Positions 18,602 to 37,273 of a stretch of DNA of 64,000 bases are shown here, one piece after another. Origin of the DNA: Shewanella loihica PV-4 (GTDB lineage Bacteria; Pseudomonadota; Gammaproteobacteria; Enterobacterales; Shewanellaceae); NCBI RefSeq assembly GCF_000016065.1, contig NC_009092.1, forward strand, positions 1,116,001-1,180,000, read 5' to 3'. The notes below the pieces were generated by a model that was not told where the DNA came from, did not search any database, and saw only the letters and a list, made by a program, of their open reading frames with translations. The translations under genes and the position numbers were made by a program. Position 1 is the first letter of the stretch; every line of letters begins with the position of its first letter.

Positions 18602-18632
18602 CTAGTGGACTTAGCATCAATAATGAGGATTC

Positions 18633-22219: not shown

Positions 22220-22287
22220 ACAAAAAAGCCTGCAAGATGCAGGCTTTTTTGTTTGAATTGGTGGCCCCTCACAGACTTGAACTGTGG
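22220..22287. repeat. 68-bp perfect direct repeat, right copy
   Basis: Identical to 15090-15157. Here it continues into an anticodon arm on the minus strand, which the left copy lacks. It contains the same terminator hairpin and tRNA 3' end. Confidence 0.85.
22222..22250. terminator. rho-independent terminator, both strands
   Basis: Same 12-base stem as at 15092 (AAAAAAGCCTGC / GCAGGCTTTTTT). It would end transcription of the PLD gene and lies just beyond the 3' end of the tRNA remnant. Confidence 0.8.
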
Positions 22288-22305
22288 ACCTAACGATTAT
22301 GAGTC
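22259..22305 (-). pseudogene. 3' half of the split tRNA-Ile2(CAU) gene
   Basis: On the minus strand this reads GACTCATAATCG, then GTTAGGTCCACAG, the T arm and AGGGGCCACCA. It supplies the anticodon loop CTCATAA, variable loop, T arm, acceptor 3' strand and CCA. The sequence upstream (minus-strand sense) is only a degraded D-arm-like stretch that no longer pairs. Joined to the 5' half at 37232-37273 it gives a tRNA-Ile2 with full acceptor and T stems and four of five anticodon pairs. It therefore marks the left edge of the island. Confidence 0.8.
22295..22305. other. attL-like core, GATTATGAGTC
   Basis: The 11 bases GATTATGAGTC in the anticodon region occur here and at 37233-37243, at the two ends of the island. 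They are the shared core expected of site-specific recombination in a tRNA anticodon arm. A third copy lies in the intact tRNA at 37161-37171. Confidence 0.65.
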
Positions 22306-22365
22306 TAACACGCCAAATTGAGCTAACTGCATGATTTAGCTCGTCTTTTTCAAATTTTCTTTTCT

Positions 22366-22390
22366 AAAAAAACCTGCCGGAACGGCAGGT
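22366..22390 (-). terminator. rho-independent terminator on the minus strand
   Basis: Minus-strand ACCTGCCG, TTC, CGGCAGGT is followed by seven T. It would end a leftward transcript coming from the hairpin-rich region at 22.47-23.2 kb, where no protein gene on that strand is convincing. Confidence 0.7.
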
Positions 22391-22469
22391 AAATCCCTTG
22401 TATTTACTGCCTCCGGAACAACGGTTTTGGAAGCAGTTTTACGTCTGAAATTTTACCTGCCGGGAAAAA

Positions 22470-22611
22470 CAAAGCCCCCGAAAGCGAATGTCTGTGGCGG
22501 ACAACTTTCGAGGGCTTCACCGGCTCACTGAGTGAGCGAATTTGTTTTACAGGGCACATGTTAGCCCTGTATCGAACAATTCGCAAGTAGCTCAGGGGCC
22601 GCACTCGGCCC
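22470..22611. other. cluster of four consecutive hairpins
   Basis: Four inverted repeats follow one another: 22472-22484 with 22505-22517 (13 bases, one mismatch); GCTCACT/AGTGAGC at 22523-22537; 22536-22546 with 22575-22584 holding an inner ACAGGGC/GCCCTGT stem; and GGGCCG/CGGCCC at 22596-22611. This density points to a structured RNA or a DNA site such as an origin, not a coding region. Confidence 0.55.
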
Positions 22612-23243
22612 AGAGAACGCGAAAGCAAGCCTGTGGCCGAGTCGGCGGCAGGTTTGTACGTCCTCCCCTGATTGTCGCGGGTCGCGCCGCTAACTTGGGG
22701 GCTGTCTCGCTGGGCTTGCCGCTCAGATTAGCCCCTCCTGGTGTAACAACCAGGCAAACCCTTGTTGCGGCTTGGCTGCTGCGGCTTGTGGTTAGTACAG
22801 AGGAAGCTCAGGGGGCCGCGTGGGATTATGCACCGCTTCAGTTGCTGCACGGGGAGTTGATCAGGCTAGGCCCCATAAAAACCCAAGCCAGTAAATCGCA
22901 GCATGGGGCGAAGGGTGTTGCCGGAGCGCGGAGCCACCAAAACGGCTTGAGAGAGCGCAGAGTGCCCAGAATCAGCTGGGATCATTACTGCCTGTACTCA
23001 GAGACATATCAAGCCTAGGTGACAGTACCGGCTGGCTGTAATGCCTTGAGGGCGCAGCTTTTCGCTTAGTGAACCAAAACCTTGCCTTAAAGGGTTTTTG
23101 GGGAGCTAGGGGAAAGACTGCGCCAGCCAGGGGGCTGGCCGCTTCGCGGGAGGCCGCAGGCCTCAAAAAAATTTAAAGCGCGGTGGAAGGTGTTTAGCCC
23201 ACCAACCACCGCTAACCACAACCACCTTACAGGAGGTGATTCT
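22612..23243. other. GC-rich region without a convincing gene
   Basis: About 630 bases of GC-rich DNA with further short inverted repeats, for example CCTGGT/ACCAGG near 22737-22754 and GCCAGCC/GGCTGGC near 23122-23139. Open frames here are Arg-rich, lack good ribosome sites and match nothing I recognise. It ends in the AGGAGG site of the HTH gene. It may be a leader, an origin or a long non-coding RNA. Confidence 0.5.
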
Positions 23244-23588
23244 ATGGCTACTTATGATTCTAACGGTTCAGAAATCAATGGAACACAAGCTCGAAGCTTT
23301 GGACGTGTTTTATCGTTGCTTGTCGCTGTTGAACGACTCGAAAAACCCAATTTGGATGCATTGGTAGAGAGAACGAACCTTCCAGGTCGATCAATTCACG
23401 CAATGATTGGAAAGCTGCATAAAGACTATTTTGTGGTTATTGAAAGACAAAATGGTCGCCGGTTCGGTTATTACAAGGTTGTTGATTGGGGCGTCCTAGA
23501 TCGAGATCGAATCCTCAAGATGGTTGGGGACGACGAATCAGAAAAGGCCGATGAAGAGCAGTGCGAGCTGGATTTCCAGCCAATTTGA
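23244..23588 (+). CDS. small winged-helix-like DNA-binding protein
   Basis: 114 aa. ATG 23244 is chosen because AGGAGGTG lies directly upstream; the open frame extends further but without a ribosome site. The middle (residues about 18-75) reads as a helix-turn-helix with a wing: LSLLVAVERLEKPNLDALVERTN, then SIHAMIGKLHKDYF and ERQNGRRFGYYKV. The C-terminal tail is acidic. It is the first gene of a five-gene run to 25763, so it may regulate that run. No specific family can be named with certainty. Confidence 0.65.
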   Translation: MATYDSNGSEINGTQARSFGRVLSLLVAVERLEKPNLDALVERTNLPGRSIHAMIGKLHKDYFVVIERQNGRRFGYYKVVDWGVLDRDRILKMVGDDESEKADEEQCELDFQPI

Positions 23589-23635
23589 CAAGTGCTTTTC
23601 TGAAATTACGTTGAACTAACCCGAGAGGATTTTTT

Positions 23636-23956
23636 ATGAATAAATATTCACTTCGATACCGTATTGCCAGAGCACAGTTGAGTTGTCATTTGCTTGAAAC
23701 TGCTGCTGGTCAGGAATTTCCTGATATTCGTGATTGGTCAATATATGCGGTTACCAGATTTGTGGTTGATGGAAATTTTGTGTCGCCTGATCAGGTTCCG
23801 CTGATTGGTTCGGATGGCCGTCAGGTCGTTTTTCTCGGATATGCCGAACGTCGAGAAATTCCTGACATTAAGGCGATTAACGTCTCGTCCTTAGACCAGA
23901 TCATGGCTCTACAGTTTTACAACCAGATCGCAGCTAATGCAGAGGTGGGTGTATGA
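23636..23956 (+). CDS. hypothetical protein of the island operon
   Basis: 106 aa, not recognised. GAGAGGA precedes the ATG. The protein is soluble in appearance with mixed alpha/beta character (DWSIYAVTRFVVDGNFVSP, QVVFLGYAERREIPDIKAI). It ends four bases past the start of the next gene (ATGA overlap at 23953), so it is probably co-translated with the small membrane protein downstream. Its place between the HTH gene and membrane/periplasmic genes suggests a role in element transfer or regulation, but nothing in the sequence proves that. Confidence 0.6.
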   Translation: MNKYSLRYRIARAQLSCHLLETAAGQEFPDIRDWSIYAVTRFVVDGNFVSPDQVPLIGSDGRQVVFLGYAERREIPDIKAINVSSLDQIMALQFYNQIAANAEVGV

Positions 23957-24213
23957 AATCGTCCGTTCAGTTTAAATTTCAACTTATGGCCTGGCTGATT
24001 CATTTCGCCGGAGTGGTGTTTGCATTCATTGCTCTGCACTGGATTCAGGGTTGGCTTACCTGGTTTTCAAATGAATGGATCTCGGGCGCGTTCATAGTTT
24101 TTGGGGCGCTGTATTTGTCTGCGGTTACGATGCGTATTTACAACGGAGTTCATCCAGGGCCACGACTGATCCAGCAGCATTTTGAGCGTTTTGGAGGTCA
24201 TCGTCATGAGTAG
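23953..24213 (+). CDS. small two-span membrane protein
   Basis: 86 aa. Two hydrophobic segments are clear: MAWLIHFAGVVFAFIALHWI (about 10-30) and ISGAFIVFGALYLSAVTM (about 43-60). The C-terminus is basic and His-rich (GGHRHE). The start overlaps the upstream stop in ATGA and its own stop overlaps the next start by eight bases, so it is in a tightly coupled run. Not recognised; a membrane partner of the TraY-like protein is possible. Confidence 0.6.
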   Translation: MKSSVQFKFQLMAWLIHFAGVVFAFIALHWIQGWLTWFSNEWISGAFIVFGALYLSAVTMRIYNGVHPGPRLIQQHFERFGGHRHE

Positions 24214-25375
24214 ATGGACGATAGTCGAGAAGGAGGCCCTTAAACGGGCCTCCCATTTCGTCTGCGTAATTTTGGTGGCGCTCAGCTCACAAGCTCAGGC
24301 CACCAGTTGCGATCCCTGTATTCAGGCTGCCGCCAATGGCGCTGAATTCACAATGGTCAGCGCCATTAATACCGGCGTTACTTCCGTACAAGCGAATGAG
24401 GCCGCCACAAAGGCTCTTAACTCTGCAATACAGGCAACTGACACTGCAATCCTGGCAACATTGAATCTCAACACACAGCAACTTCTGCAGGGGTTGTCAG
24501 CTTCGACAAACAGAGTTGAATTGTCTGTTCAGCAAACCTCTAAAGCCGTAGAGCGGATGACTGATCACACGGTTAAAAGCATGGTGTCAGCTTTAAAGCA
24601 GGTTCGAGTTGCTGAGGAGGTGGATGAGAACAATAAGGCATATAGCGGCGTCCTTGCTCAACCACTTTCCGTGGAGATAGGAGCCAACAGAGCGCCCTTA
24701 TTGAAACAGGGGTTTGTTCAGTCCGATCAGGTATGGCGCCAGATGGCAGACGACATGAATGCTTGGAGCAACAACACAAGCGATGCTGATCAGGCTGGAA
24801 TGGGAGTTAAACAGGCTGCTCTACTGACTGAGGGGGAGGCCGTCTGGAGTCCGGTACCGCTAGTTACACAATCTCAAATTACCACAGACAAATCAGTTGA
24901 AATGCAAAAGCTGCTAACCATGCTAATCAATCCCGTTCCTCTACCTTCGGCGTCTGATGAGCAAATAGCTTTTAGTTCGGAGGCCGGTGAGTATGAGCTT
25001 GAACGTCGGATTCTCAATGCTCAATTAGGGCTTGTACACGCTGTATTAGCGAAATCAGTTGCCGACAAGCAACCACTCATTCCAATGTCAGATGAAGACT
25101 GGCAAAAGGGCTATGTAATGGCTGAGCCTGATAACAATGGCAGCGTATCTGTGATGAGTATGCTGGAATCAGAAACGATTGGGCGGTTAGGGGCTGAGGG
25201 CTGGTATCAGGACGTAAAAACAAAAACCCAGGCTGGCATATTAAGGGAGCAGGTTGCGATGGGATCAATCAATGCAGCGCTCTGGCATAGGCTACAGCAG
25301 CAGGAAGAGCAAGCGCTTGTTCTGCAGTCATTACTGCTGCTAAACACCTTACGGGAGGGGCAACCTCATGAGTGA
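24206..25375 (+). CDS. periplasmic protein, probable conjugation-system component
   Basis: 389 aa. ATG 24206 follows GGAGGTCATC; the longer frame from 24182 is rejected. A signal peptide (FVCVILVALSSQAQA) is followed by a CxxC pair, TSCDPC. The region after it (about 40-130) is rich in Ala, Thr and Gln and likely forms a long helix. The start overlaps the previous gene and the stop overlaps the next. It resembles exported Ala/Gln-rich proteins seen beside TraY/DotA genes in Dot/Icm-like systems, but I cannot name a family. It is the likeliest partner of the TraY-like protein encoded convergently at 25764-28076. Confidence 0.6.
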   Translation: MSRWTIVEKEALKRASHFVCVILVALSSQAQATSCDPCIQAAANGAEFTMVSAINTGVTSVQANEAATKALNSAIQATDTAILATLNLNTQQLLQGLSASTNRVELSVQQTSKAVERMTDHTVKSMVSALKQVRVAEEVDENNKAYSGVLAQPLSVEIGANRAPLLKQGFVQSDQVWRQMADDMNAWSNNTSDADQAGMGVKQAALLTEGEAVWSPVPLVTQSQITTDKSVEMQKLLTMLINPVPLPSASDEQIAFSSEAGEYELERRILNAQLGLVHAVLAKSVADKQPLIPMSDEDWQKGYVMAEPDNNGSVSVMSMLESETIGRLGAEGWYQDVKTKTQAGILREQVAMGSINAALWHRLQQQEEQALVLQSLLLLNTLREGQPHE

Positions 25376-25763
25376 TATTTTGATGAACCAGCGAGAGCTG
25401 CTCAAGTGGTCACAACGACTTGCAGAAGATGACTGGAGCCACCAAGTTTGGGAAAACTTGGTATTCAGCGGAGCGTGTGCCAGTTTATGGCTTATCTGCA
25501 TATTTACGTTAGTTGCCTGCCTGGTGCCGCCTATCAGACGGTTGATTCATAGTCGAACTGGTGTTTATCTGCCCTGGAATATCTGTGTTGGAGTGTGGCT
25601 GATTACAGGTCTAATCGGGATTATGGGATGGCCGTCTCTTTTCACAGTTGGCGTACTCGCCTATTGGGTTAATGCCACTGTCCCAGGGTGGTTGCTGGAA
25701 CCAGTGGCAGAGTTTACTCAGCAGTTTTTTACTGCTGCTGGTTGGTTCATTTGGCGTTATTGA
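25368..25763 (+). CDS. small multi-span membrane protein
   Basis: 131 aa with three hydrophobic segments (about 37-58, 75-95 and 97-117). Its ATG lies in an eight-base overlap with the gene before it, after GGGAGGGG. Its stop codon is directly abutted by the stop of the convergent TraY-like gene at 25764, with no base between them and no terminator. Not recognised. The context suggests a membrane part of the same transfer-related set. Confidence 0.58.
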   Translation: MSDILMNQRELLKWSQRLAEDDWSHQVWENLVFSGACASLWLICIFTLVACLVPPIRRLIHSRTGVYLPWNICVGVWLITGLIGIMGWPSLFTVGVLAYWVNATVPGWLLEPVAEFTQQFFTAAGWFIWRY

Positions 25764-28076
25764 TTACTTGGGGCTGAGCATTTTGCTGATTTTGCTCATC
25801 CCCGATTTTGCAGCACCGGTAGCACTTTTGATTCCATTGCCTGCTGCTTCCGACATTGATTGAGCACCACCACGGGTTTTATCTCTCATTGAGTGACCAG
25901 CCCCGCCCACCAATTTTGCTGCACCACCAACAAAAATACTGCGGCTTTGCTGCTCATTGGACGCTTCACCCAAATTCTCAGCCCCCCCTCCAATGTACCG
26001 TAATACCTTGTCTGGGACTTCATGAATTAATCCGTAAGCTCGATGCGCGATCTGGATCAGGACAATGGTGAAGATTGCCAGTAACGCGGCCAGTGTGACT
26101 ACGCCGGACAGGCTATCACCTATCATCCCACTCATTGCCGGTAGAAAAAGCAACATGAGAACCTTACCCATGACGATGACCAGCAGCATTCCTGAGAAAA
26201 AACCAAATATGGCAAGAGTCGGCCTCAGAAATAGCGATAGGGCCACCATATAGCCCGCTTTGGCTCTCTCCCCTATGAACCCCTGCCCCTCAGGCATGGC
26301 ATGGCTCACGGCCCAAACAGGAGCCGCTATTACGGCCTCGATGAGCATTACAAGCCAGCCAGCTACACCCATGATCCAGAGAATCATAGGGGTGGCTGGT
26401 AGATAAAATGCCAGCATCAGCGCGATTGGAATCAGTAAAAAACCCGCGCCGACCAGAGACCATAGAGTTTTGTTTGTCATACGGCAAAGCGTGCTGGTTA
26501 CGGGTCGTGAGGCCCCGCCGATCAGACCGCCTACAGCTTCGCTGGTGTCATCGGCAACGCAAGCTGCCAGGTCAGTCAAAAATGCCGCCGCAAGCGTTGT
26601 CTCAAAGGCCGTTATTATCGTGTGTCCAACGTTTGCCATACCAGCAATAGGGTCTGGCTCACTCAATGCAAAATTCAATATTGAATCAGCAGTGCTCATA
26701 ACAACGCCCAGCCCGTTATTGTCGTCTGCATAAGTAGATCGTTCCATTGCATTCACGAGTGCGCCGGTTCTTGGGTCAGTAACTTGCATATTCTGAGAAT
26801 AAGCTGACAGGGCGCTGGAGAATATTTTGTAATCTGCATTTTCTATGGCCGATTCCGTTGGCCCTGATAATTCTGCCTGTACTGATACCATTTTTTGTGT
26901 TTCAGCATTAACTCGTTGCAAGTCCCAATACCATGCGCCGACTGAAATCCATCCGGCATCCCGAGCACCCACGGTCATACCAGCAGCATCGGGATTGCCG
27001 CCTGCCCATTTATTTATGCGAGCAGTAGCAATTTCGCTTAGTGCATCATTAACGGCTTTGTCATAGCCAATTTTGAATTGCTGGACAGCCATGTTGTAGG
27101 CGGTTGGATCAGGATCGGGCGCGGTATCATCCACCGCCTTTAGCACAATCTCTCTTGCCAAGGCATCGAGATCCTCATCCAGATCTGCATGAGCCTGAAT
27201 GATTTTTGACTGAAAACTCCTGACGGGAACATCTATCGCCGTCCCTTCGTCAATTTCAGCGAATTCCAGACTGATAGAACCGCAGGGATTCGAGCCGTAA
27301 CTTCTCGGAACACCACTCGGAAAACCAGAAAGCCAGGCTGCGCCATACGCGACGCCGGCACCAGCCAGACTGTAGCGACTGTCATACCGCTGCATGACTT
27401 TGTGCTGAACAGGAACCAGGGTAGACCCCGTTGAACCGGATGAACGCATGGAAACCACTTGATCATCAGCAACAATTTCAATCGGCTTCTCCTCAATATT
27501 TACATGCCGGTCAGCGGTATTGATTCCATGCATACAAACGCGCGATTCTAAAATTCGCATGGCCGTTTGTTCATAGTTGATGGCAATCTGCGGAGGGTAT
27601 AGCGTACCAGTCCCACTGATATGATCTAGGGCCATATTCCACGTTGAGTTTGCCAATCCAATTCCATGTCCGGCCAACCAAAGCACACCAATCTGCATAG
27701 TGGAGTAACCCCCACTGAATGGCAAAACCAGAGCCAAGGCTACGACCATTCGTAGTGGTACCCACATAGTAGAATACATCTTCCCAAGAGGGTTTCCTTC
27801 GTGAGCCGAATTCAATACTCCGGTTAAAAACACGTAACCGATTATTAGGCCGGTAAACACAAGCATTCCTGTGTTCAGAATCTGTGACATTGCACCTAGC
27901 ACTGAATCTGGAGCGGAAGGCCCCGTTCCTCCAGTAATGATGTCAACAGTCGAGCCAAATATATAACGGAGGTACTCCAAGCTTTTGTCTTGAGGATCAA
28001 CGTCAGTTATCGACGCAAACGCCAATGAGCTACTCAGCAGAAGAGGGAGTAGCAGAAGTGCTGTTTTCATTCTCAT
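25764..28076 (-). CDS. traY: DotA/TraY-family polytopic membrane protein
   Basis: 770 aa. A signal peptide (ALLLLPLLLSSSLAFA) is followed by a membrane segment near residues 70-90, two more near 105-150, a long hydrophilic middle region (about 160-480) and a second cluster of spans (about 525-690). The C-terminus is Ser/Gly/Ala-rich. This signal-TM-long loop-TM cluster layout, and WVPLRMVVALALVLPFSGGYS, are typical of IncI TraY and Legionella DotA, inner-membrane parts of type IVB secretion. ATG 28076 has GGGAGAT nine bases upstream. No other type IVB core gene is in the window, which is unusual for this family. Entry exclusion or replacement of a helper TraY are possible roles. Confidence 0.78.
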   Translation of the reverse strand: MRMKTALLLLPLLLSSSLAFASITDVDPQDKSLEYLRYIFGSTVDIITGGTGPSAPDSVLGAMSQILNTGMLVFTGLIIGYVFLTGVLNSAHEGNPLGKMYSTMWVPLRMVVALALVLPFSGGYSTMQIGVLWLAGHGIGLANSTWNMALDHISGTGTLYPPQIAINYEQTAMRILESRVCMHGINTADRHVNIEEKPIEIVADDQVVSMRSSGSTGSTLVPVQHKVMQRYDSRYSLAGAGVAYGAAWLSGFPSGVPRSYGSNPCGSISLEFAEIDEGTAIDVPVRSFQSKIIQAHADLDEDLDALAREIVLKAVDDTAPDPDPTAYNMAVQQFKIGYDKAVNDALSEIATARINKWAGGNPDAAGMTVGARDAGWISVGAWYWDLQRVNAETQKMVSVQAELSGPTESAIENADYKIFSSALSAYSQNMQVTDPRTGALVNAMERSTYADDNNGLGVVMSTADSILNFALSEPDPIAGMANVGHTIITAFETTLAAAFLTDLAACVADDTSEAVGGLIGGASRPVTSTLCRMTNKTLWSLVGAGFLLIPIALMLAFYLPATPMILWIMGVAGWLVMLIEAVIAAPVWAVSHAMPEGQGFIGERAKAGYMVALSLFLRPTLAIFGFFSGMLLVIVMGKVLMLLFLPAMSGMIGDSLSGVVTLAALLAIFTIVLIQIAHRAYGLIHEVPDKVLRYIGGGAENLGEASNEQQSRSIFVGGAAKLVGGAGHSMRDKTRGGAQSMSEAAGNGIKSATGAAKSGMSKISKMLSPK

Positions 28077-28383
28077 AGTTTTTTATCTCCCATCCACGCG
28101 TAATTAGAAAGTTTCTATCTGTTTGTCGAGTTGCATGGCGATTTAATAATTCAGTCAATCCAGCCCTAAACTTTTCATTTCTTTCTGCCTCGGCTGCAAC
28201 GCATGAAGCAATCACCATCAACTCCCGATTCCGTGCTTTTCGGTTTTCGGCTTTTTGCTGCGCAAGAAAATCGCTGAGCCTTGCGGTTAGCTGATCGTGT
28301 TTTTCCAACTCACTGGCAATTCTTGGATCAATCGATGCTAAGGCGCGTAGTTTTTTTTCTTCACTTGGTTTAAGTCGTGCCAT
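28030..28383 (-). CDS. small mobilization accessory protein (MobC position)
   Basis: 117 aa, charged and probably mostly helical (RLKPSEEKKLRALAS, then SELEKHDQLTARLSDFLAQQKAEN). ATG 28383 is preferred for its GGAGAT site. The 3' end overlaps the TraY-like start by 47 bases. It is divergent from the relaxase across the hairpin cluster at 28594-28692, the same layout as mobC-oriT-mobA in IncQ plasmids. The role as a relaxosome accessory protein is inferred from position, not from a recognised domain. Confidence 0.55.
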   Translation of the reverse strand: MARLKPSEEKKLRALASIDPRIASELEKHDQLTARLSDFLAQQKAENRKARNRELMVIASCVAAEAERNEKFRAGLTELLNRHATRQTDRNFLITRGWEIKNYENENSTSATPSSAE

Positions 28384-28593
28384 AAAAATATCTCCAAACA
28401 CATTCCACTTAATTCTTCCATCTCAAAAGCATCCCTTAAATAGAAAAGTGTCGAAAAGTACAGTTTTCTCTGGAGTTAAAAAGCGGGCTGATATTAGTCT
28501 CATTCAATGCATTAAATCAGCCGCTCAATTGTGCTGTTTAACAGCGTATAGGCGAGAGGATGCGAGTTTTTGCACAAAGTTTGAGGCTGGCAC

Positions 28594-28692: not shown

Positions 28693-28713
28693 TAAAAACC
28701 ATGAGGAATCGTT

Positions 28714-28881
28714 ATGGCAATTTTCTTTCTTCGTATGAACCCAGTTTCAAGGCAAAAGAAATTGCCTAGCGGAAAAATTATTAAGCAATCAGCGACTGCT
28801 GGAGCGGCATACAGGGCGGCTGAAAAAATTGTTGATCAGAGAACTGGGAAGGTTTCGGACTACACCCAAAAAAAGGCGTAA
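28714..28881 (+). CDS. mobA: relaxase N-terminal segment (55 aa) carrying the catalytic Tyr
   Basis: A 55-codon frame from ATG 28714, after TGAGGA, to TAA 28881. It encodes the start of a MobA/MobL (MobQ) relaxase: MAIFFLRM at the N-terminus, then SATAGAAYRAAEKIVDQ with the motif I Tyr at residue 33, and TGKVSDYTQKK at the end. In family members DYT-KKGV runs straight on. Here the frame stops after QKKA, while GV is read in the -1 frame that leads into the long ORF at 28881. The stop and the next ATG overlap as TAATG. Alone it cannot be a relaxase, because the metal-binding His residues are in the next ORF. Confidence 0.75.
   Translation: MAIFFLRMNPVSRQKKLPSGKIIKQSATAGAAYRAAEKIVDQRTGKVSDYTQKKA
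28869..28875 (+). promoter_or_regulatory. A_AAA_AAG slippery heptamer (candidate -1 frameshift site)
   Basis: In the frame of the 55-aa segment the codons are CAA AAA AAG, giving A_AAA_AAG, the heptamer used by E. coli dnaX. A -1 slip leads to GGC GTA ATG and on into the relaxase body, restoring the family sequence KKGV. GGGAAGG lies 16 bases upstream. No strong downstream stem was found. A lost A in the homopolymer would look the same. Confidence 0.55.
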
Positions 28882-30173
28882 TGGCGACAATGCTATTTAA
28901 CAATCAGGGATTAAGCAGAGCTGAGCTATGGAATATGAGCGAGCTATCAAATCCAAGGAAAAATTCTCGTGTTGCACGAGAGACCATTGTCGCCCTTCCA
29001 CATGAGCTGAATTTGGATAGCTATAAATCCATTTTAACAAGATATGCCAATGCAATAGTTGAACGATATGGCGTTGCGGTTGATGTGGCCATTCATGCAC
29101 CAGGTAGAGATGGCGACCATAGAAACTTTCATGCTCACGTCTACTGCACCACTCAAGTAATAGAAGATGGAAAACTTGGAAGGAAGGCAGAGATTGAGTG
29201 GAGTGATGCGAATCTGAAAAAGGCTGGAATACCAAAAGGAAAAGCACAGCTTTTGGCCGTTAAGCAGCTATGGGAAAAGTGTGTAAATCAGGAGTTTTAC
29301 AGGCTCGGAATGGACGAGCGAATAGATCACAAGTTTGAAATTAAGGGAGACAAAATACCTCAAGTTCACGTGGGGCCGCATGGAACCAAGCTGGCTCGAC
29401 ATGGGAAAGGCCACGAGTCAGACGAGTGGCAAATTAACCAGGCGATCATCGCCTACAACAATGTTGTTTCATTACAACAAAAGAGGACTGAAAAAATGCA
29501 AAACCAATTACAAACCGAAATCCAAAGTAACACCTCGACACCTCAAAAAACCGCGACCGCCTACGGTGGTCTTGCAGCCTCTCAGGAGGCGGCTGAGGAA
29601 GCTCTGAAGCAGGTCAAACAGCGAACCCAGGAACAGCAAAAGAATGAATCGGAACAGATAGAGGCTGAGCGGTGGAAGCCAGCACAGATAGACCCCAACA
29701 AGGGCAGTGTTATCAATATGTTTCAACAGGATTCCCAGGGCGTTTATCGATGGACTAAGGGGCGAAATGAAGGTGCGGAAGCATTCCGCGATACGGGAAA
29801 AGCAATTCACAGTCAGACTACCAATTCATGGGCGCTGGCTGCCGAACTGGAGCTTGCAAAAGCCAAAGTTGATGCCGGTGACTGGAAGGAGATCCGCACT
29901 TTTGGCAGTGAGGAATATCGTCGTGCGGTGTGGATACAGGGACAAACGATGGGAATACAGGTTGAGGGTTACAAGCCCACGAAAGAAGAGCTTGCCAGAT
30001 ACGGCCAAGCACCTGCTCAAGGGTTGGCCGGTGATCAAAAATCAGCAGCAGAAGCTACCCAAAACCGCTTTCAAACAGACCAGAAATTTCAGAACAAATT
30101 CGAGAAAAATTCCGGCACGGCCAGCACGCCGGATAACTCCAACTCTAGCCCATCACGTAGTCCCAAAATGTAA
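28881..30173 (+). CDS. mobA: MobQ (MobA/MobL) relaxase, main part
   Basis: 430 aa from the ATG in the TAATG overlap. The relaxase domain fills residues 1-160: ALPHELNLDSYKSIL near 38, then IHAPGRDGDHRNFHAHV (residues 71-87), the metal-binding His motif III, and RIDHKFEIKGDKIPQVHVGP near 150, typical of the family. The rest is hydrophilic, Gln/Glu-rich and probably coiled coil. The motif I Tyr is missing here and sits in the 55-aa frame upstream. With a -1 shift the product would be about 487 aa, near the usual MobA/MobL size. It would nick oriT and lead the strand into a type IV system. Confidence 0.82.
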   Translation: MATMLFNNQGLSRAELWNMSELSNPRKNSRVARETIVALPHELNLDSYKSILTRYANAIVERYGVAVDVAIHAPGRDGDHRNFHAHVYCTTQVIEDGKLGRKAEIEWSDANLKKAGIPKGKAQLLAVKQLWEKCVNQEFYRLGMDERIDHKFEIKGDKIPQVHVGPHGTKLARHGKGHESDEWQINQAIIAYNNVVSLQQKRTEKMQNQLQTEIQSNTSTPQKTATAYGGLAASQEAAEEALKQVKQRTQEQQKNESEQIEAERWKPAQIDPNKGSVINMFQQDSQGVYRWTKGRNEGAEAFRDTGKAIHSQTTNSWALAAELELAKAKVDAGDWKEIRTFGSEEYRRAVWIQGQTMGIQVEGYKPTKEELARYGQAPAQGLAGDQKSAAEATQNRFQTDQKFQNKFEKNSGTASTPDNSNSSPSRSPKM

Positions 30174-30193
30174 GTCACTATTGGAGTATTCTA

Positions 30194-30908: not shown

Positions 30909-30910
30909 AA

Positions 30911-30928
30911 CCGCACCAGTGCGGTTTT
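30911..30928 (+). terminator. rho-independent terminator after the mobilization genes
   Basis: CCGCAC, CA, GTGCGG then TTTTCG, three bases after the stop at 30908. The stem is short but perfect. Its right arm begins the TGCGGTTTTCG motif repeated at 30963 and 35586. Confidence 0.6.
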
Positions 30929-30930
30929 CG

Positions 30931-31125
30931 TCATTTAAATTCATTGAGTGGACGGGAATCAATGCGGTTTTCGGCATTTTCCCGTTCACCAGTCCCCACA
31001 CAGATATGGCGAGGCAGTTCCATTGGCACGTCGTCCACAACCAGGTAGTTATACTTCTCTCTTTCCTCCTGAGATGCGGCATCAAATTCGGCTTGTGTGA
31101 CCAAGAACCTTGGCAGATATTTCAT
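30931..31125 (-). CDS. small ORF directly after the serine recombinase
   Basis: 64 aa. The ATG follows the recombinase TAG with no gap, and GGGCAGG at the recombinase 3' end can serve as its ribosome site. The sequence (KYLPRFLVTQAEFDAAS, then EKYNYLVVDDVP) looks like a folded peptide rather than random. It would be the last gene of the methylase-endonuclease-recombinase run. The hairpin at 30952-30985 lies inside its 3' end. Not recognised; moderate doubt that it is real. Confidence 0.42.
   Translation of the reverse strand: MKYLPRFLVTQAEFDAASQEEREKYNYLVVDDVPMELPRHICVGTGERENAENRIDSRPLNEFK
30952..30985. repeat. two-tier hairpin with TGCGGTTTTCGGCA apex
   Basis: Outer arms ACGGGAA (30952-30958) and TTCCCGT (30979-30985) enclose inner arms AATGC and GCATT around the loop GGTTTTCG. 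The same apex, with a different stem, occurs at 35574-35614. Confidence 0.5.
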
Positions 31126-31755
31126 CTATTGCCTGCCCTCAATGACTTGTTTCCCGTAGTCTCTCAGTTCACCTTTCGGGCTGACATAACGATACAGGGT
31201 CTGTCTAGATACTCCCAGTTCACGGCACAATTCCGAAACGTTCGTATCCCGGTGCTGCATTGACGCCTGAGCCAAACGAACCTGGCTCTTGGTCAACTGA
31301 TGCCTGCGGCCACCCTTTTTGCCTCTTGCACGAGCGGCGCTGAGTCCGGCTAGAGTCCGTTCCCTAATCAGTTCGCGCTCGAATTCAGCCAACGCAGCAA
31401 ATATCCCGAAAATCATCTTACCTGCGGCAGTGGAGGTGTCGATGTCTGCCCCTTGGCCGCTGATCACCTTGAGGCCAACCCCTCGATCGTTTAATCCCTG
31501 AACCGTATTTACAAGGTGTGTGAGATTGCGCCCCAGTCGGTCGAGCTTCCATACAACAAGTGTGTCCCCCTCCCGTAGAGCTTTAAGGCAAGCGTCAAGT
31601 CCCGGGCGGCTATCCTTCTTACCAGATAGCCGGTCGTAGTAGATATTGGATGGGTCTATGTCCAAAGCCCGCATAGCATCCTCTTGCAAATCCAAGACTT
31701 GAGAGCCATCAGACTTAGAAACTCGGACATATCCAATCTTCATTGAGTGGGTCAC
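31126..31755 (-). CDS. serine recombinase (resolvase/invertase family)
   Basis: 209 aa. The catalytic Ser is in YVRVSK at residue 13. The resolvase core continues with DRLSGKKDSRPGLDACLKAL, LVVWKLDRLGRNLTHL and EFERELIRERTLAGL, and ends in a helix-turn-helix (VSELCRELGVSRQTLYRY). This is a full Pin/Tn3-resolvase-type small serine recombinase. The frame can start at GTG 31755, overlapping the endonuclease stop as GTGA, or at ATG 31743. It is unusual to find it translationally coupled to a restriction-modification pair. It may resolve element dimers or invert a segment; no res or invertible site was identified. Confidence 0.88.
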   Translation of the reverse strand: MTHSMKIGYVRVSKSDGSQVLDLQEDAMRALDIDPSNIYYDRLSGKKDSRPGLDACLKALREGDTLVVWKLDRLGRNLTHLVNTVQGLNDRGVGLKVISGQGADIDTSTAAGKMIFGIFAALAEFERELIRERTLAGLSAARARGKKGGRRHQLTKSQVRLAQASMQHRDTNVSELCRELGVSRQTLYRYVSPKGELRDYGKQVIEGRQ

Positions 31756-32849
31756 TTGTTGCGGTTGGAAAGGGACGTCAGCTTGACAGATTCGTCATGC
31801 TCTCTCAGATCGATAATGTAATCCGGCTCAGTAGAGAACCAGGCATAGGAGCCCCATGCCAGCTCAGAGATAGATTTTTTGAAGGGTTGCGAGCTTCGAT
31901 CAAGAAATGCAGTTAGGAAAGCCAGGTGTTCGGGATCAAAGCCGGCTTCTGTCGCAAGAGTCGTCAGAATCTCTTTCCTTTGGCGGTTGATGGGGCCGTC
32001 AGATGCGACAACCTCAGTGAACACAACCAGCATTTCAAGTCCCGTGCTGTCGTCCCCTAGATCAACCAGGATAATGTCGGGAAGGGCCCGTGATGGATCT
32101 ATTTGAAGCCCTAGCGCCTTCGCCAAGGCTTCGTCCTGGGCTACCACCTTGTTTCCCGATTCCGATAACCAGAGCACTTTTGGCTTTTTTAGGAATCTCG
32201 GTGCGAACTCTTCTATAACAGCCTTGGATATAAGGCTAGACGGCCCCGGTTCAAGTTTGCGTATTGCGCCATCAGGAAACTTGATCTGTACAGATTCGGA
32301 GTCCTCTGAGCCATAGTCCTTCATCAACTTCAGGCGTGTAATTGCGGCTTTTGAGAGATGTCTTTTCTGCCAGCTTTCAATTGCGGCATCGAGATCATCA
32401 CCGTAAAGGTTGATAGAAAATAGTGCTGAAAATTCTTTTTGTAGGGCGTAAGTGGGCTTTGATGAAGTGGTGGGGATACCTTGGCGAACTACAACGGCTT
32501 GAAGGGGAATCAGCCCTGTTCGGATGGTTTCATCCCGTACAGGCTCCCGACTGTTCGCCGCATACCAAGGGTTTTCAGGCTTCTTTTTCTTATTGGAAAG
32601 CATCATTTTTACCCATGCTTTCCTGTTTTCGGCATCAGTTAGTTGGGCTTGCTCATCCGTCATATCCGTGACCTGGCTTGGACGAACCCATCGATCTGAT
32701 CCCTCAATGGCTCCGGCATAGAACATCACATAGATGGTTTTAGCTGCCATTTCTCGAATAAGATAATTTCTGTGCTCTGTGCCTTCTGGGAAAATTTGTG
32801 GGAGTCTTTCAGCGATCAATGCTAACGATGGTACTTCCGGAAATGTCAC
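31752..32849 (-). CDS. BsuBI/PstI-family type II restriction endonuclease
   Basis: 365 aa. The C-terminal half carries the BsuBI/PstI signature: LPDIILVDLGDD followed by LVVFTEVVASDGPIN, which contains the PD...E/K-like catalytic core, and ILTTLATEAGF. Members cut CTGCAG, so that target is likely but not shown. The GTG start overlaps the methyltransferase stop as GTGA, and its own stop overlaps the recombinase GTG. The pair would protect the host from unmodified DNA and also hold the island in the chromosome through post-segregational killing. Confidence 0.82.
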   Translation of the reverse strand: MTFPEVPSLALIAERLPQIFPEGTEHRNYLIREMAAKTIYVMFYAGAIEGSDRWVRPSQVTDMTDEQAQLTDAENRKAWVKMMLSNKKKKPENPWYAANSREPVRDETIRTGLIPLQAVVVRQGIPTTSSKPTYALQKEFSALFSINLYGDDLDAAIESWQKRHLSKAAITRLKLMKDYGSEDSESVQIKFPDGAIRKLEPGPSSLISKAVIEEFAPRFLKKPKVLWLSESGNKVVAQDEALAKALGLQIDPSRALPDIILVDLGDDSTGLEMLVVFTEVVASDGPINRQRKEILTTLATEAGFDPEHLAFLTAFLDRSSQPFKKSISELAWGSYAWFSTEPDYIIDLREHDESVKLTSLSNRNK

Positions 32850-34633
32850 TTTGTTTTTTCCCCATAGAATTCTGACACCTTGCGCTCTATCGTCGCTTTA
32901 GGGCATCCGCTACTGATTAATTGTTCTAATTCGCAAATTTGGTCAACGGTGGGCAGAGGTAAAGCATTCAATTCATAGGCAGATACAGCAACGCTGCCAC
33001 TGATACCACGAAATGCCCTGTCCACGGCTTCAGTGCTGAGTAAGGCGCAAACAGTTTTCGGGCTGACTACTGCAATGTCTAAGCCTTCGCAGTAAATCAT
33101 GTTGAGGTGGTTTTCCACTACGGCCCCGCCATGCTCATCTAAGAAGTCTTGTGGTAACAAGGCTGGGATTAGGCGGCGAGCCTGCTCTTTCGCAGTAGTA
33201 CGCTGCAGCAGAACACAAGAATGCCGTGTTACCAGGTGAGGCTGTTTAGCGGAGAGCGCAAGATACGGAACATGATTCCGGCGAGTGGCGCTGAACTTGA
33301 ATCCGTCGGCTGTTACTGATTCTGCCCAGATCAATGGCAGAGTGCTTTTTGAAGGCATCGAGCGGAGCTGATCTTTGTGGCGGTTCCACACCAGTTGGCC
33401 AGTCGAGACTGTATAGCCAAGGTCGATCAGGCGCGTGGGCATCTTTTCCAGGTTGGCGATAAATTTCGCATCAGCCGTGCTGCGAGGAAGTACCCAAGGC
33501 TCACCCGACTTAGGAATTTTAACCTTACCGATCTTTTCAACCTTCGCGGAATTTAGCCCTTGCGGCATGATCAGCGATATATTGGCAGACTGATTACTTT
33601 TCTCTTTTTTGTATGCTGTCAGTAAGGTTTCCTGAAGTACGTCATCAAAGACGCCATTTCGATCAGAGATGAAGTCAATACCTTTTACCGTTGTTTCGGC
33701 GGTCAGCAGCTCGCGCAGTGATTTGAAATATTGCCCACCCAGGAATGAAGTGGGAGTGAGGTAAGCAACCACACCATTGTCAGCAGCAAGTCGCAATGCC
33801 AAGTCTGTAAACAAACCATATAGATTCGCATGGCCGTACAATGACCGAGAATAGGTGTCCCGCATTTCCGGAGAAAGTGTTGTACGCCCATAGGGAGGGT
33901 TGCCAATTACCAAGTCAAAAGTGCCCATATTGGACACGTTAAGTGCATCTCCAACGGTGACTAGATTCGGCAATCGCCGTTTAGCCTCAACACATAGCGG
34001 AAGAATAGATGCTTCTAGGATGACGCTGCTCATCCATGCAGCAAAGGGGTCAATTTCGATACCACGCAGCCTTTGGCCAATGCGTTTGAGCGTCCATTCA
34101 GCGGACGCTTTGGGCATGCGCTTAATCATTCTCATGGCAACAGGGGCCAAGAAGGCACCGCCACCACATGCAGGGTCAATTGCCGTACCCTTGCCGAAAT
34201 CAAAGCCAGCTTTTTCGGCCAGATCCAGCAGTCTGGATACCAGCGGCGGCGGCGTGTAATAAGCCCCCAGGCTTGAGCGCAAGGAGCTGGGTAACATTAC
34301 CGTGTAGATTGAGCCAATCAGATAACCAGCATCTTCTACTGGGAACTGAGCAATCAGCTCTCCTGTATCTGCAGCCAACTGAAGGGCATCAGGCTCAATT
34401 TCCTGCTCCAGGTATTGAGAGCCTTTAGGCTTCATTCTCGACTTGTAGCGTTTGCAGAGGGTCTGCCAGTACGCATCGATTACGGCAGCACAAAATACCC
34501 GCGCATCCTGAACACGTTGCTCATCAGAGTTACGTGAGTTTGCAAAGCCCCTCGCCATCGCTTTGCAGGCATGGTAGCGCACGAGTGGGTCATTGAGCTG
34601 TGCAACATCCTGTAAGGCAAGCGCCGTTCTCAT
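32846..34633 (-). CDS. N6-adenine DNA methyltransferase of the type II system
   Basis: 595 aa from ATG 34633, which has AAGGAAAC just upstream; the frame runs on to 34732 without a site. Motif I is DPACGGGAF and the catalytic motif IV is DLVIGNPPYGR (NPPY), the pattern of amino-adenine methylases in PstI/BsuBI and Eco57I-like groups. The C-terminal part is the target-recognition region. It precedes the endonuclease with a GTGA overlap, so the methylase is made first from the same transcript. Upstream lie two palindromes that could be operators, and a KfrA-like gene is divergent. Confidence 0.85.
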   Translation of the reverse strand: MRTALALQDVAQLNDPLVRYHACKAMARGFANSRNSDEQRVQDARVFCAAVIDAYWQTLCKRYKSRMKPKGSQYLEQEIEPDALQLAADTGELIAQFPVEDAGYLIGSIYTVMLPSSLRSSLGAYYTPPPLVSRLLDLAEKAGFDFGKGTAIDPACGGGAFLAPVAMRMIKRMPKASAEWTLKRIGQRLRGIEIDPFAAWMSSVILEASILPLCVEAKRRLPNLVTVGDALNVSNMGTFDLVIGNPPYGRTTLSPEMRDTYSRSLYGHANLYGLFTDLALRLAADNGVVAYLTPTSFLGGQYFKSLRELLTAETTVKGIDFISDRNGVFDDVLQETLLTAYKKEKSNQSANISLIMPQGLNSAKVEKIGKVKIPKSGEPWVLPRSTADAKFIANLEKMPTRLIDLGYTVSTGQLVWNRHKDQLRSMPSKSTLPLIWAESVTADGFKFSATRRNHVPYLALSAKQPHLVTRHSCVLLQRTTAKEQARRLIPALLPQDFLDEHGGAVVENHLNMIYCEGLDIAVVSPKTVCALLSTEAVDRAFRGISGSVAVSAYELNALPLPTVDQICELEQLISSGCPKATIERKVSEFYGEKTK

Positions 34634-34734
34634 TGTCGTTTCCTTATCGGTAAGGGTGGTGGTGTGTTGCATAAACCACCGTTTGTGGAGCGCCCAAGAA
34701 TATGGCCCCCAACCCCAAAATTTCCGCATCATAT

Positions 34735-34751
34735 ACTGTAACTTATACAGT
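34735..34751. promoter_or_regulatory. 17-bp inverted repeat before the methyltransferase gene
   Basis: ACTGTA, ACTTA, TACAGT lies about 100 bases before the methylase ATG. It is a candidate operator for timing the restriction-modification genes. No C-protein gene was recognised to go with it. Confidence 0.4.
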
Positions 34752-34803
34752 GTCTATTAAACGTAGCACAGTTTAATTATGGAACAAAAATAAGATTTTT
34801 CAC

Positions 34804-34831
34804 TTGTCTTGATATGTATTGTATGTATAAT
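34804..34831 (+). promoter_or_regulatory. kfrA promoter (TTGTCT, 16 bases, TATAAT)
   Basis: A perfect TATAAT -10 box at 34826-34831 and TTGTCT at 34804-34809. The -10 box lies inside the palindrome at 34813-34849, so a protein bound there would block RNA polymerase. Confidence 0.6.
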
Positions 34832-34849
34832 ACGTACATACAATACATA
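34813..34849. promoter_or_regulatory. 37-bp palindromic operator between the R-M genes and kfrA
   Basis: TATGTATTGTATGTA and its exact reverse complement TACATACAATACATA are separated by TAATACG. Fifteen-base perfect arms covering a promoter -10 strongly suggest an operator. KfrA proteins bind palindromes in their own promoters, so the gene at 34865 is the likeliest binder. Confidence 0.65.
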
Positions 34850-34864
34850 CACGGAGCCGCAAAG

Positions 34865-35482
34865 ATGAAAATTAAGCCAGAGATTAGGGAGAGAATTGTT
34901 GTTGCTGCCAGTGCGCTGGCGGCAGAAGGCATTGACAGCCCTACCAATGAGCAGGTGCGCGAGCGTATGGGTGGCGGTTCGCTTTCTCATATATCGCCTG
35001 TTATGCGCGAATGGAGGGAGTCAAGAAAGGCAGAAGTTGTTGCAGCCTTGGAGATGCCTGCTGAATTGAGGAAGGCTATTGAGTCCTCTGTGGGGCAAGT
35101 GTGGACTGCAGCCAGCAAGCTGGCATCTGCCCAGGTTGAGACCGTGCGGCAGGAAGCTGACGCCGCCATCGAGGCCGCCACCGGTGAGCGGGATGAGGCG
35201 TTGGCAGAGGTTAGCCGTCTGGAAGAGCGAATTGCTGAGCTGCAAAAAGCCGTGACTGAAAAAGAGCAAGCTGTCAGTCAGGCTCGCGAAGAGCTGGAAA
35301 GAGATCGCGCTCAAAGCTCCAAGTTGATTAGCGATAATGCCGCCCTTGTCGCTCGTGTGGATGACAGGGATGAACAGATCAAAGGGCTTAAGGCCGAGTG
35401 GAAAGAGTCGCGTGATGACAATAAGGCTCTGCAAAATGAGCTTGTTGAGATAGCGCGTGATTCTGGCAAGGGTAAGCGGTAA
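34865..35482 (+). CDS. kfrA: KfrA-like DNA-binding coiled-coil protein
   Basis: 205 aa from ATG 34865; the longer frame would start inside the palindrome. Residues 1-100 match the KfrA N-terminal DNA-binding domain (VRERMGGGSLSHISPVMREWRE). Residues about 100-200 form an unbroken coiled coil rich in Glu, Ala and Lys. KfrA of plasmids autoregulates and helps maintain the replicon. It is divergent from the restriction-modification operon across the 37-bp palindrome. Confidence 0.8.
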   Translation: MKIKPEIRERIVVAASALAAEGIDSPTNEQVRERMGGGSLSHISPVMREWRESRKAEVVAALEMPAELRKAIESSVGQVWTAASKLASAQVETVRQEADAAIEAATGERDEALAEVSRLEERIAELQKAVTEKEQAVSQAREELERDRAQSSKLISDNAALVARVDDRDEQIKGLKAEWKESRDDNKALQNELVEIARDSGKGKR

Positions 35483-35573
35483 GTTTGGTGGGTAGACCTC
35501 GCCGGTCTGGCTTCGCGTCTCTCGATAGAGAGAACGCAGTGAACGTACCGGCGAGCAAAGAGAAAAGCAAATC

Positions 35574-35614
35574 AAGTGGAAATAGTGCGGTTTTCGGCAG
35601 TGTTTCTTCCACTT
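35574..35614. repeat. hairpin with TGCGGTTTTCGGCA apex
   Basis: AAGTGGAA (35574-35581) and TTCCACTT (35607-35614) enclose TGC/GCA around GGTTTTCG. The apex matches 30963-30976 exactly, while the outer stem differs. It is in the 277-base gap between kfrA and the DUF4224 gene. Confidence 0.5.
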
Positions 35615-35759
35615 CATTTGAGTTTTAGGGTGTTTGAGGCACTTTCTCTCGAAAAGTGAAGTTTTTTGTTGATGGGGGTTGACGGCTGAGACAAAAATTC
35701 AATTGTCCGCGGTCATCCGCCGTCCGCAACACGTGAGCTAAACGAAAGAAGAGGTGCTT

Positions 35760-35981
35760 ATGGATCTACTACTAACAGACGATGAAGTGACAATGTTGAC
35801 TGACTACGAAAAGCCGAAGGCTCAGTGCAGGCAGTTGATGAAAATGGGGATTACATTTGAGGTCGGTCGAACCGGCAAACCAAAGGTGCTGCGAGATGCA
35901 GTGAAAGAAAAGCTCGGCGGATCTAGCTTCCGCAAACGCAAAGAGCCAGCAGTAAACGTTGCCGCACTGAGCGGCATGTAA
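35760..35981 (+). CDS. DUF4224-type protein preceding the integrase
   Basis: 73 aa from ATG 35760 with GAGG upstream. The sequence LLTDDEVTMLTDYEKPKAQ, then QLMKMGITFEVGRTGKPKVLRD, is typical of DUF4224 proteins, short probable DNA-binding proteins encoded immediately before tyrosine integrases in phages and islands. It lies 10 bases before the integrase. A role as a recombination directionality or regulatory factor is inferred. Confidence 0.72.
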   Translation: MDLLLTDDEVTMLTDYEKPKAQCRQLMKMGITFEVGRTGKPKVLRDAVKEKLGGSSFRKRKEPAVNVAALSGM

Positions 35982-35991
35982 GGAGGTCACG

Positions 35992-36966
35992 ATGGGAAGA
36001 CGGCGGAAATCGGACAATCATTTACCTCCAAAGGTGTATCAGCGCTCAGGTAGTTATTACTTCGTTGATAAAGATGGTAAGTGGATTAAGTTGGCCTCCA
36101 GCTACCCCGAGGCAATGGTTAAGTATGCAGAAATTGTTGGCGATGTTGGAAATCTGGTTACCGTTAGTGATCTGCTGGATCGCTACCTGCGGGAAGTGGC
36201 TCCGCTGAAGGCCGAGGCTAGCTACAAAAGTAATCTGGCGCAGTCAAAATTTTTGCGAGCAGGTCTGGGAGATATTCGGGTGGATGAGCTGACGCCACGG
36301 CACATCTACCAATATATGGATGTGCGAGGAAAAAAGGGGAAAACACAGACAAATCGTGAGATTGCAATGTTGTCCCACATGCTCAAATATGCCATTCGCT
36401 GGGGATTGATCGATCACAATCCCTGTCGCAGTGTTATGCGCTTTAAAGAGACACCCAGAGATCGCTATATTGAGGATAAAGAATATAAAGCATTCAGAGA
36501 TTTTGCAGGCCCCCTAATTGCCGCGTATATGGATTTTAAGCTTCTAACGGGGCTCAGAAAGTCGGACATTTTGAAGTTAAGGCGAGATGCACTGAAAGAG
36601 GACGGGATTCATGTTTTGATCAACAAGACGAAGCGGAAAATCATTATCTCTTGGTCAGATCACCTTCGGGCCGCAGTGCAGGCGATTAAAGATTTGCCTC
36701 GCCCGATTAACAGTATTTATTTGTTTTCAACGCGAAAGGGCCAGCCTTACACGACTGATGGGTTTTCATCCATCTGGCAGCGAAAGATGGTCAAAGCGAT
36801 GGAAAAAGGTATATTAACGGAACGGTTCACCGATCACGATGTGAGAGCTAAGACAGGAAGCGATGCGGAGTTAGAGCATGCTACCAGGTTGCTGGCTCAT
36901 CTCGATGCGAAGGTGACCCAGAAACACTACAGAAGAAAGACAGCAGTAGTGCGTCCTTTGATGTAG
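35992..36966 (+). CDS. int: tyrosine-recombinase integrase of the island
   Basis: 324 aa with a strong AAGGAGG site. The N-terminal SAM-like core-binding domain is at about 55-150. The catalytic residues are visible: TGLRKSD (Arg, near 189), NKTKRK (Lys), HDVRAKTG (His and second Arg), LLAHLDAKV (His) and the nucleophile in KHYRRK (Tyr313). It lies 158 bases from the intact tRNA-Ile2 and about 270 bases from the attR-like core, the usual integrase-next-to-attachment-site layout. It should integrate and, with help, excise the island at the anticodon arm of tRNA-Ile2. Confidence 0.9.
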   Translation: MGRRRKSDNHLPPKVYQRSGSYYFVDKDGKWIKLASSYPEAMVKYAEIVGDVGNLVTVSDLLDRYLREVAPLKAEASYKSNLAQSKFLRAGLGDIRVDELTPRHIYQYMDVRGKKGKTQTNREIAMLSHMLKYAIRWGLIDHNPCRSVMRFKETPRDRYIEDKEYKAFRDFAGPLIAAYMDFKLLTGLRKSDILKLRRDALKEDGIHVLINKTKRKIIISWSDHLRAAVQAIKDLPRPINSIYLFSTRKGQPYTTDGFSSIWQRKMVKAMEKGILTERFTDHDVRAKTGSDAELEHATRLLAHLDAKVTQKHYRRKTAVVRPLM

Positions 36967-37124
36967 TATTTTGGAAACGGCTGGTTTTTTTGGAAAGAGG
37001 TCTGAAAAAGCTGGCGTGATAGACCCTCAGATTGAGGCGTCTGGATTCAGTTAGGATGGGGTGTTTTGAGCACCCTCAAGGTTAAAGCCAAAAACCTTCT
37101 AACTGATTGATTTGAAAGGAAAAA

Positions 37125-37201
37125 TGGTGGGCCCAGCAGGACTTGAACCTGCGACCGATCGATTATGAGTCGAGCGCTCTAACCAACTGAGCTATAGGCC
37201 C
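37125..37201 (-). tRNA. tRNA-Ile2 (CAU anticodon), intact, on the island
   Basis: 77 bases with encoded CCA. Acceptor GGGCCTA pairs with TGGGCCC (one G-T), the T stem is GCAGG/CCTGC and the anticodon loop is CTCATAA. The TTCAAGTCC T loop and overall sequence resemble E. coli ileX, not the elongator tRNA-Met with TTCGAATCC. The C34 would be modified to lysidine by TilS to read AUA. It lies between the two halves of the split tRNA, so it belongs to the island. Automated tools may call it tRNA-Met because of the CAU. Confidence 0.88.
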
Positions 37202-37231
37202 ATTTAAACTTTCCTTTCTCCCCAGGCCAAC

Positions 37232-37273
37232 TGATTATGAGTCGTGTGCTCTAACCAACTGAGCTAAGGGGCC
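37232..37273 (-). pseudogene. 5' half of the split tRNA-Ile2(CAU) gene
   Basis: On the minus strand GGCCCCTTAGCTC, the D arm and CACGACTCATAATC match ileX. After the anticodon loop the sequence departs (AGTTGGCCTGGGGAG) and cannot complete the anticodon stem, T arm or acceptor. Its acceptor strand GGCCCCT pairs exactly with AGGGGCC of the fragment at 22259. It lies beside rpoD, where ileX lies in E. coli. Confidence 0.82.
37233..37243. other. attR-like core, GATTATGAGTC
   Basis: Second end copy of the 11-base core at 22295-22305. Together they define an island of about 14.94 kb. Confidence 0.65.

Follow-up and report, generated by a model that had tools for sequence, protein, structure and literature searches.

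tRNA-dependent lysogeny was described for actinobacteriophages by Guerrero-Bustamante and Hatfull (mBio 2024, PMC10865867); the sections of that paper used here show the phage tRNA to be required, include tRNA-Ile2-CAT cases with cores of 9-10 bp, and ask how prevalent the phenomenon is outside actinobacteriophages. Here we describe a 14.9-kb island (about 22306-37232) in a 64,000-nucleotide window of Shewanella loihica PV-4 (positions 1116001-1180000 of a genome analysed as a single contig of 4.6 Mb), inserted behind rpoD, where it interrupts the host tRNA-Ile2(CAU) gene within its anticodon arm. Our reading, to which we give a probability of about 0.86, is that the island breaks the host's single tRNA-Ile2 and carries a foreign, complete replacement, functioning as in tRNA-dependent lysogeny, here in a seemingly non-phage element. 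The features that define the locus are as follows (G and L numbers below are our handles for genomes and loci, and left and right attachment sites are abbreviated attL and attR).

37477..39381, minus strand: rpoD, the host gene upstream of the target tRNA (Pfam sigma-70 domains)
37233..37273, minus strand: 5' half (nt 1-41) of the native tRNA-Ile2, at attL; 100% identical to the native gene of relatives
37233..37243, minus strand: attachment core GACTCATAATC at attL, in the anticodon arm
37125..37201, minus strand: complete carried tRNA-Ile2(CAU) of foreign type (ARAGORN; Rfam 71.4 bits)
35992..36966, plus strand: tyrosine integrase (PF00589, 5.7e-9; phrog_1, 9.6e-47)
22295..22305, minus strand: attachment core GACTCATAATC at attR
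22259..22305, minus strand: displaced 3' half (nt 31-77) of the native tRNA-Ile2; 100% identical to the native gene

On the minus strand the order is rpoD, a sigma-70-like site, nt 1-41 of tRNA-Ile2, a 31-bp spacer, a complete and different tRNA-Ile2, and the convergent integrase gene. The two native halves overlap by the 11-bp core GACTCATAATC, which is common to attL and attR. An initial sequence-only reading had recognized these two halves ending in the same sequence, with a tyrosine integrase and an intact, clearly different tRNA-Ile2(CAU) between them, and all of this holds; its placement of the 5' half (37232-37273) is right except at the start, the half being one base shorter. On the joined halves ARAGORN calls a full tRNA, the cloverleaf on which that reading had depended. 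The joined site with its flanks, a 152-nt sequence built by script, is 100% identical over its first 128 nt to the intact locus in two relatives (G091 and G092), and aligns with two others at 98.6% (G033, 146 columns) and 96.8% (G102, 155 columns), while BLAST gave no match to the island (22306-37232) in the rpoD-linked loci of these four genomes. Exact 41- and 47-nt matches at both ends of a stretch that is absent from relatives cannot be put down to chance. Twenty-nine island-free relatives have one intact native gene in the 3' region of rpoD, rather than both tRNAs. In the window, ARAGORN and Rfam together find the carried tRNA only, and neither junction yields a rebuilt functional tRNA; the island does leave its target unrebuilt and supply another tRNA, as had been proposed. 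Judging from these matches, excision at the core would give back the native tRNA-Ile2 gene exactly.

The carried gene is also the single tRNA-Ile2 found in the genome. The census covered the genome's 95 Rfam tRNA places, at which ARAGORN called 94 tRNAs, leaving the weakest place (31.5 bits) uncalled. ARAGORN names every tRNA with a CAT anticodon tRNA-Met and the Ile2 class was assigned separately in this analysis: the 94 include eight CAT tRNAs, which we take to be five initiator-like, two elongator-like, and one Ile2, as well as three Ile-GAT and no tRNA-Ile(UAU). A pattern search of the genome returned as its sole Ile2-like CAT sites the broken 3' half and the carried gene. The host tRNA-Ile2 is disrupted with no other copy found, and losing the carried tRNA would probably be lethal while the island is integrated. 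Had the host possessed two tRNA-Ile2 genes, of which the island broke one, the loss would be neutral. We found no support for this, beyond the frequent occurrence of identical tRNAs in tandem at other places in the genome, and consider it very unlikely indeed: in all 30 rpoD loci taken from the genus, our own included, ARAGORN calls a single tRNA-Met(CAT), and the second tRNA here is foreign in type and lies between the attachment cores.

The carried and native tRNAs are identical at 60 of 77 positions, with differences falling in both halves. The five best matches of the carried tRNA elsewhere, among 369 genomes of the class, are 94-95% identical, and seven of the nine best matches that were read (91-95%) adjoin rpoD; the carried tRNA therefore looks like an orthologue from another lineage of the class.

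The tRNA-Ile2 site behind rpoD is an insertion hotspot at which rebuilding is the commoner outcome. Within a set of 129 genomes of the genus, our own included, the native locus used as a query matched in all 129 (in G136 only weakly), and a tRNA-Ile2 pattern was found in 126 of the 128 others, where the matches in G085 are a carried gene and a 3' half. An uncontinued 5' half, a kind of match that scores above the survey's cut, occurs only in our genome, G085, and G125. A displaced 3' fragment of at least 44 nt occurs in at least 15 genomes besides ours, G085 and G125 among them; the other 13 combine a gene at rpoD with a fragment, the usual trace of ordinary islands that rebuild their target (in five of them, G134, G132, G029, G064, and G073, the fragment is on another contig). 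It is these 13, against three genomes with an uncontinued 5' half, that mark the site as a mostly rebuilt hotspot. They also raise the question of whether ours is an ordinary tRNA-targeting island, with the intact tRNA as the rebuilt target and the extra 5' half as a relic of an older insertion. Traces of ordinary islands at this site in 13 of 128 other genomes would fit that explanation, as would relatives of the integrase that do rebuild and an older insertion present at 15164-22258. However, the native 5' half comes immediately after the host promoter and its join with the native 3' half, at 22305, is exact, and the intact tRNA, only 60/77 identical to the native one, differs from it in both halves and therefore is not a host 5' half completed by an island 3' half. 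We accordingly give an ordinary island next to no weight and retain the reading of a broken target with a foreign replacement.

Two further arrangements at this site deserve description. The older insertion occupies window positions 15164-22258, reaching about 7 kb beyond the 3' half at the same tRNA site; it is absent in G033, where 11000-15163 directly adjoins the tRNA, and is partly common to G091. It holds PLD-like, beta-lactamase-fold, amidohydrolase, and M20 peptidase genes, and a decayed tRNA 3' fragment lies at 15129-15172. In G125 (L257, 1069-1567), the rpoD-linked tRNA-Ile2 is broken at nt 57 and followed by two further pieces, one 5' half and one 3' half, each on its own; neither the stretches read nor the pattern, which also misses this genome's elongator tRNA-Met, gave a complete Ile2. 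This could be a decayed double insertion or a misassembly.

The same layout occurs elsewhere beside other integrases. There are two further integrated cases, G085 and G656, and one form without a host half, L289. In G085, a member of the same genus, a 12.6-kb island (L256, 2913-15614) with two tandem integrases and a cytosine methylase has its 5' half at 15614-15574, a 51-bp spacer, a complete tRNA-Ile2 at 15522-15446, and its 3' half at 2957-2913. In G656, from another family of the order (L290, 10351-10506; L331, 1986-2030), a 25.6-kb island repeats the layout of half and complete tRNA: it has a 5' half, a 38-bp spacer, a complete tRNA, a 3' half 25.6 kb away, and an adjacent integrase with an Arm-DNA-bind_3 domain, with rpoD preceding the half by about 7.5 kb within a single locus. 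The carried and native tRNAs of G656 differ at 4 of 77 positions. Across the order, two of 394 genomes match the architecture (our own and G656), a lower bound since the pattern was exact; G085 lies outside that sample. The IMG/VR contig L289 (35.5 kb) has an integrase, core, spacer, and complete tRNA-Ile2 at 10216-11452 with no host half, and we read it as the circular-form attachment site (attP) of such a cassette; the best phage matches of its integrase are at 45-48%. The window integrase gave no tblastn match at 1e-3 in L256, L257, L286, or L289. Agreement between carried isotype and target in these other cases is partly by construction, as the searches sought a half of the same tRNA.

Among the viral contigs, L370 (IMG/VR, 1-188) starts inside a tRNA-Ile2-like 5' half and continues with a complete tRNA-Ile2 and an integrase that is a distant relative of the window integrase (29%), and it may be a further case. 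Pattern matches in L288 and L365-L369 proved to be phage tRNA arrays or tRNA pairs and were rejected.

Relatives of the window integrase include both rebuilders and probable non-rebuilders. A protein search gave 362 proteins including our own, the closest other being 85% identical and P0002-P0005 spanning 73-85%; relatives were confirmed in 212 genome and 100 viral contig cases, of which the best 80 and 79 loci were kept. With loci from an extra genome search added and our own included, there are 74 in which a convergent tRNA lies no more than 1.2 kb from the integrase. Within the DNA available for each locus, ten of these 74 carry a rebuilt tRNA and a displaced 3' copy, and three have a 5' half followed by a complete tRNA: our own, L125 (11112-11361), and L136 (9341-9590). 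The latter two come from metagenome-assembled genomes labelled Herminiimonas and Azoarcus, and each has a tRNA-Ser(UGA) 5' half, then a complete and different tRNA-Ser(UGA), beside a window-related integrase. As a strict pattern found no 3' partners of these halves in the two genomes, we count them as likely rather than proven cases. In an integrase tree of 49 hand-chosen rows, our own and the Ser cases fall in two clades (support 0.997), each including members without an orphan half; supports are low next to the Ser cases (0 to 0.5) and next to our own (0.09). The locus L068, whose integrase is 58% identical, has one complete tRNA-Ile2 between integrase and rpoD and no half.

How might such an insertion be tolerated? 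In the sequence of events that we propose, the host's one tRNA-Ile2(CAU) gene carries the 11-bp core in its anticodon arm, and a mobilizable island would have recombined there and destroyed the gene. The island's attP would hold no working 3' tRNA half, and therefore nothing would be rebuilt at the junction; a complete tRNA-Ile2 of foreign type would instead arrive 31 bp inside it, in the same direction. Transcription from the host tRNA promoter may then pass the orphan half and spacer and continue into the carried tRNA, the read-through transcript would be trimmed by RNase P, and the carried tRNA alone would decode AUA while the island is in place, until excision at the core restored the native gene. 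Three features bear on this scheme.

37310..37338, minus strand: promoter-like site of the host tRNA-Ile2, GTGACA-17-TATACT (10/12 matches; 1 found versus 0.3 expected)
37202..37232, minus strand: 31-bp spacer separating the core from the carried tRNA; pairing with the orphan 5' half is predicted
22372..22390, minus strand: terminator-like hairpin, expected upstream of the carried tRNA once the island is circular (3 terminator-like sites in the region versus 0.8 expected)

The host promoter-like site is the sole one in the region upstream of the tRNA, and a somewhat looser pattern is present there in 32 of 32 genus loci examined, our own included. No promoter-like site was found in the island's far end, which would precede the tRNA in the circle, and the terminator-like hairpin there reads towards the tRNA. 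G085 has the same host promoter-like site, and its far end holds one site only, in the wrong direction; in L289 no promoter-like sites were found. This arrangement is consistent with capture of the host promoter by the carried tRNA. It also bears on a different view, in which the main job of the carried tRNA is to suit the island's own codon use or to withstand defences that cut tRNAs, with replacement a side effect. Such roles are discussed for phage tRNAs (PMC10865867, PMC10688831), but the carried tRNA adjoins the junction and is aligned with the promoter of the host tRNA, and in the window no other Ile2 remains, so we think it very improbable that replacement is incidental.

Folding of the precursor was also predicted. 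The mean probability of the carried acceptor stem is 0.97 in the window, 0.98 in G085, and 0.41 in G656, and without the orphan half it is 0.81, 0.98, and 0.33; compared with shuffles, acceptor folding has p = 0.065, 0.005, and 0.095, respectively. The orphan half is predicted to pair partly with the spacer (0.56 in the window, 0.85 in G085, 0.55 in G656). For this spacer hairpin, p = 0.25 in the window, 0.028 in G085, 0.006 in G656, and 0.08 in L289 against shuffled spacers, and 0.048, 0.005, 0.006, and 0.28 against random 20-mers of the window island; for L289, its own tRNA half took the place of a host half. We take these values as suggestive of a spacer that may fold the orphan half away as an insulating hairpin.

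Several observations weigh against our reading of a replaced host tRNA driven by the host promoter. G656 lacks the host promoter-like site and has a weak far-end site (9/12, not above chance), and promoter capture is therefore supported in two of the three integrated cases; the minimum-energy precursor of G656 has no cloverleaf, its acceptor probability being 0.41. The carried tRNA could have a non-consensus promoter of its own. Finally, the first look at the genome's tRNAs scored 150 of 210 candidates, so that there could still be an unusual extra Ile2.

A more general proposal is tentative, and we would lean against it in its full form. Here, an attP-tRNA cassette (core, a short spacer complementary to the broken half, and a complete promoterless tRNA) would be silent in the circle, capture of the host promoter upon integration would switch it on, and the spacer would fold the broken half away. 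Carrying a whole tRNA might free anticodon-targeting elements from matching the host acceptor stem, and the cassette or strategy might have been joined to several integrases in Gamma- and Betaproteobacteria. Acceptor-stem incompatibility was rejected as a general reason for the whole tRNA: in chimeras of host 5' half and carried 3' half, the number of acceptor mismatches is two for the window, one for G656, and zero for G085, and ARAGORN calls all three chimeras, so that incompatibility is at most part of the reason. We also set aside the idea of attP as a decayed tRNA, for which the D-arm-like stretch before the attR core gave a weak signal (p = 0.016 versus the native half, 0.058 versus the carried half).

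Besides the integrase, the island encodes the following.

34814..35482, plus strand: KfrA_N plasmid DNA-binding protein (PF11740, 2.5e-22)
32846..34732, minus strand: type II adenine methyltransferase (PF07669; PADLOC MTase_II, 7.9e-250)
31752..32849, minus strand: BsuBI/PstI-type restriction endonuclease (PF06616, 2.8e-42)
31126..31755, minus strand: serine resolvase/invertase (PF00239, 3.6e-43)
28881..30173, plus strand: MobA/MobL (MobQ-like) relaxase (PF03389, 8.2e-28; NF041496 under its cut-off)
25764..28076, minus strand: DotA/TraY family protein (TIGR04346, 9.1e-125)

The integrase is the only match to phage families among the larger island open reading frames (Pfam on 16, PHROGs on 10 of these). 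With a relaxase, restriction-modification, and no phage structural gene among the tested frames, the element looks like a mobilizable non-phage island. No close relative turned up in plasmid or phage collections: every integrase match falls below 60% identity, and the whole island matches via the tRNA alone among the matches listed. A lone DotA/TraY protein sits in this small island with a MobA/MobL relaxase, and we would guess at an entry-exclusion or hitch-hiking function. Between 22542 and 25763 are six open reading frames, five without a match at 0.001 in Pfam, PADLOC, NCBIfam, or PHROGs and one with a winged-helix Pfam domain.

The locus is a clear case in a non-phage-looking island, accompanied by two further integrated cases and one attP form. 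It shows a route for an essential gene onto mobile DNA, and such an island should be hard to lose except by exact excision. Island finders assume a rebuilt target tRNA, which does not hold here, and the arrangement offers a ready test of promoter capture. By title and the start of the abstract, the open-licence literature yielded no gammaproteobacterial or non-phage island that carries its target tRNA in this way, which is weak evidence of absence.

The principle is already known from phages; the present example is a seemingly non-phage island whose carried tRNA follows the host tRNA promoter. In Islander tRNA-integrating islands (PMC4383910), a tyrosine integrase, an anticodon-loop crossover, and a displaced 3' fragment at the far end are likewise found, but the disrupted gene is restored there and is not restored here. 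For prophages or islands of Sinorhizobium meliloti, a host tRNA gene is described as substituted by a phage-borne one, which the authors liken to tRNA-dependent lysogeny (PMC11476347, PMC12429752); those cases differ in being alphaproteobacterial, in their phage-related sequences, and in the tRNAs concerned. The Lj965 prophage is reported to lack tRNA rebuilding and to code for the cognate tRNA, although it is a prophage of Lactobacillus johnsonii (cited in PMC10865867). Closest is tRNA-dependent lysogeny itself (PMC10865867), which also combines a tyrosine integrase, a host tRNA gene that contains the core (about 10 bp) and is not rebuilt, and a carried cognate tRNA of the same isotype that is not closely related to the host's; there, too, tRNA-Ile2-CAT is a target, of the Gordonia phages OneUp and Mollymur, and related integrases occur both with and without rebuilding. 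The tRNA of phage Fionnbharth overlaps another phage gene and has strong upstream promoter activity, whereas that of the island follows the core after 31 bp and is aligned with the host promoter. And whereas those elements are temperate phages of Actinobacteria, ours is a relaxase-bearing island from a different phylum, in a member of the Gammaproteobacteria.

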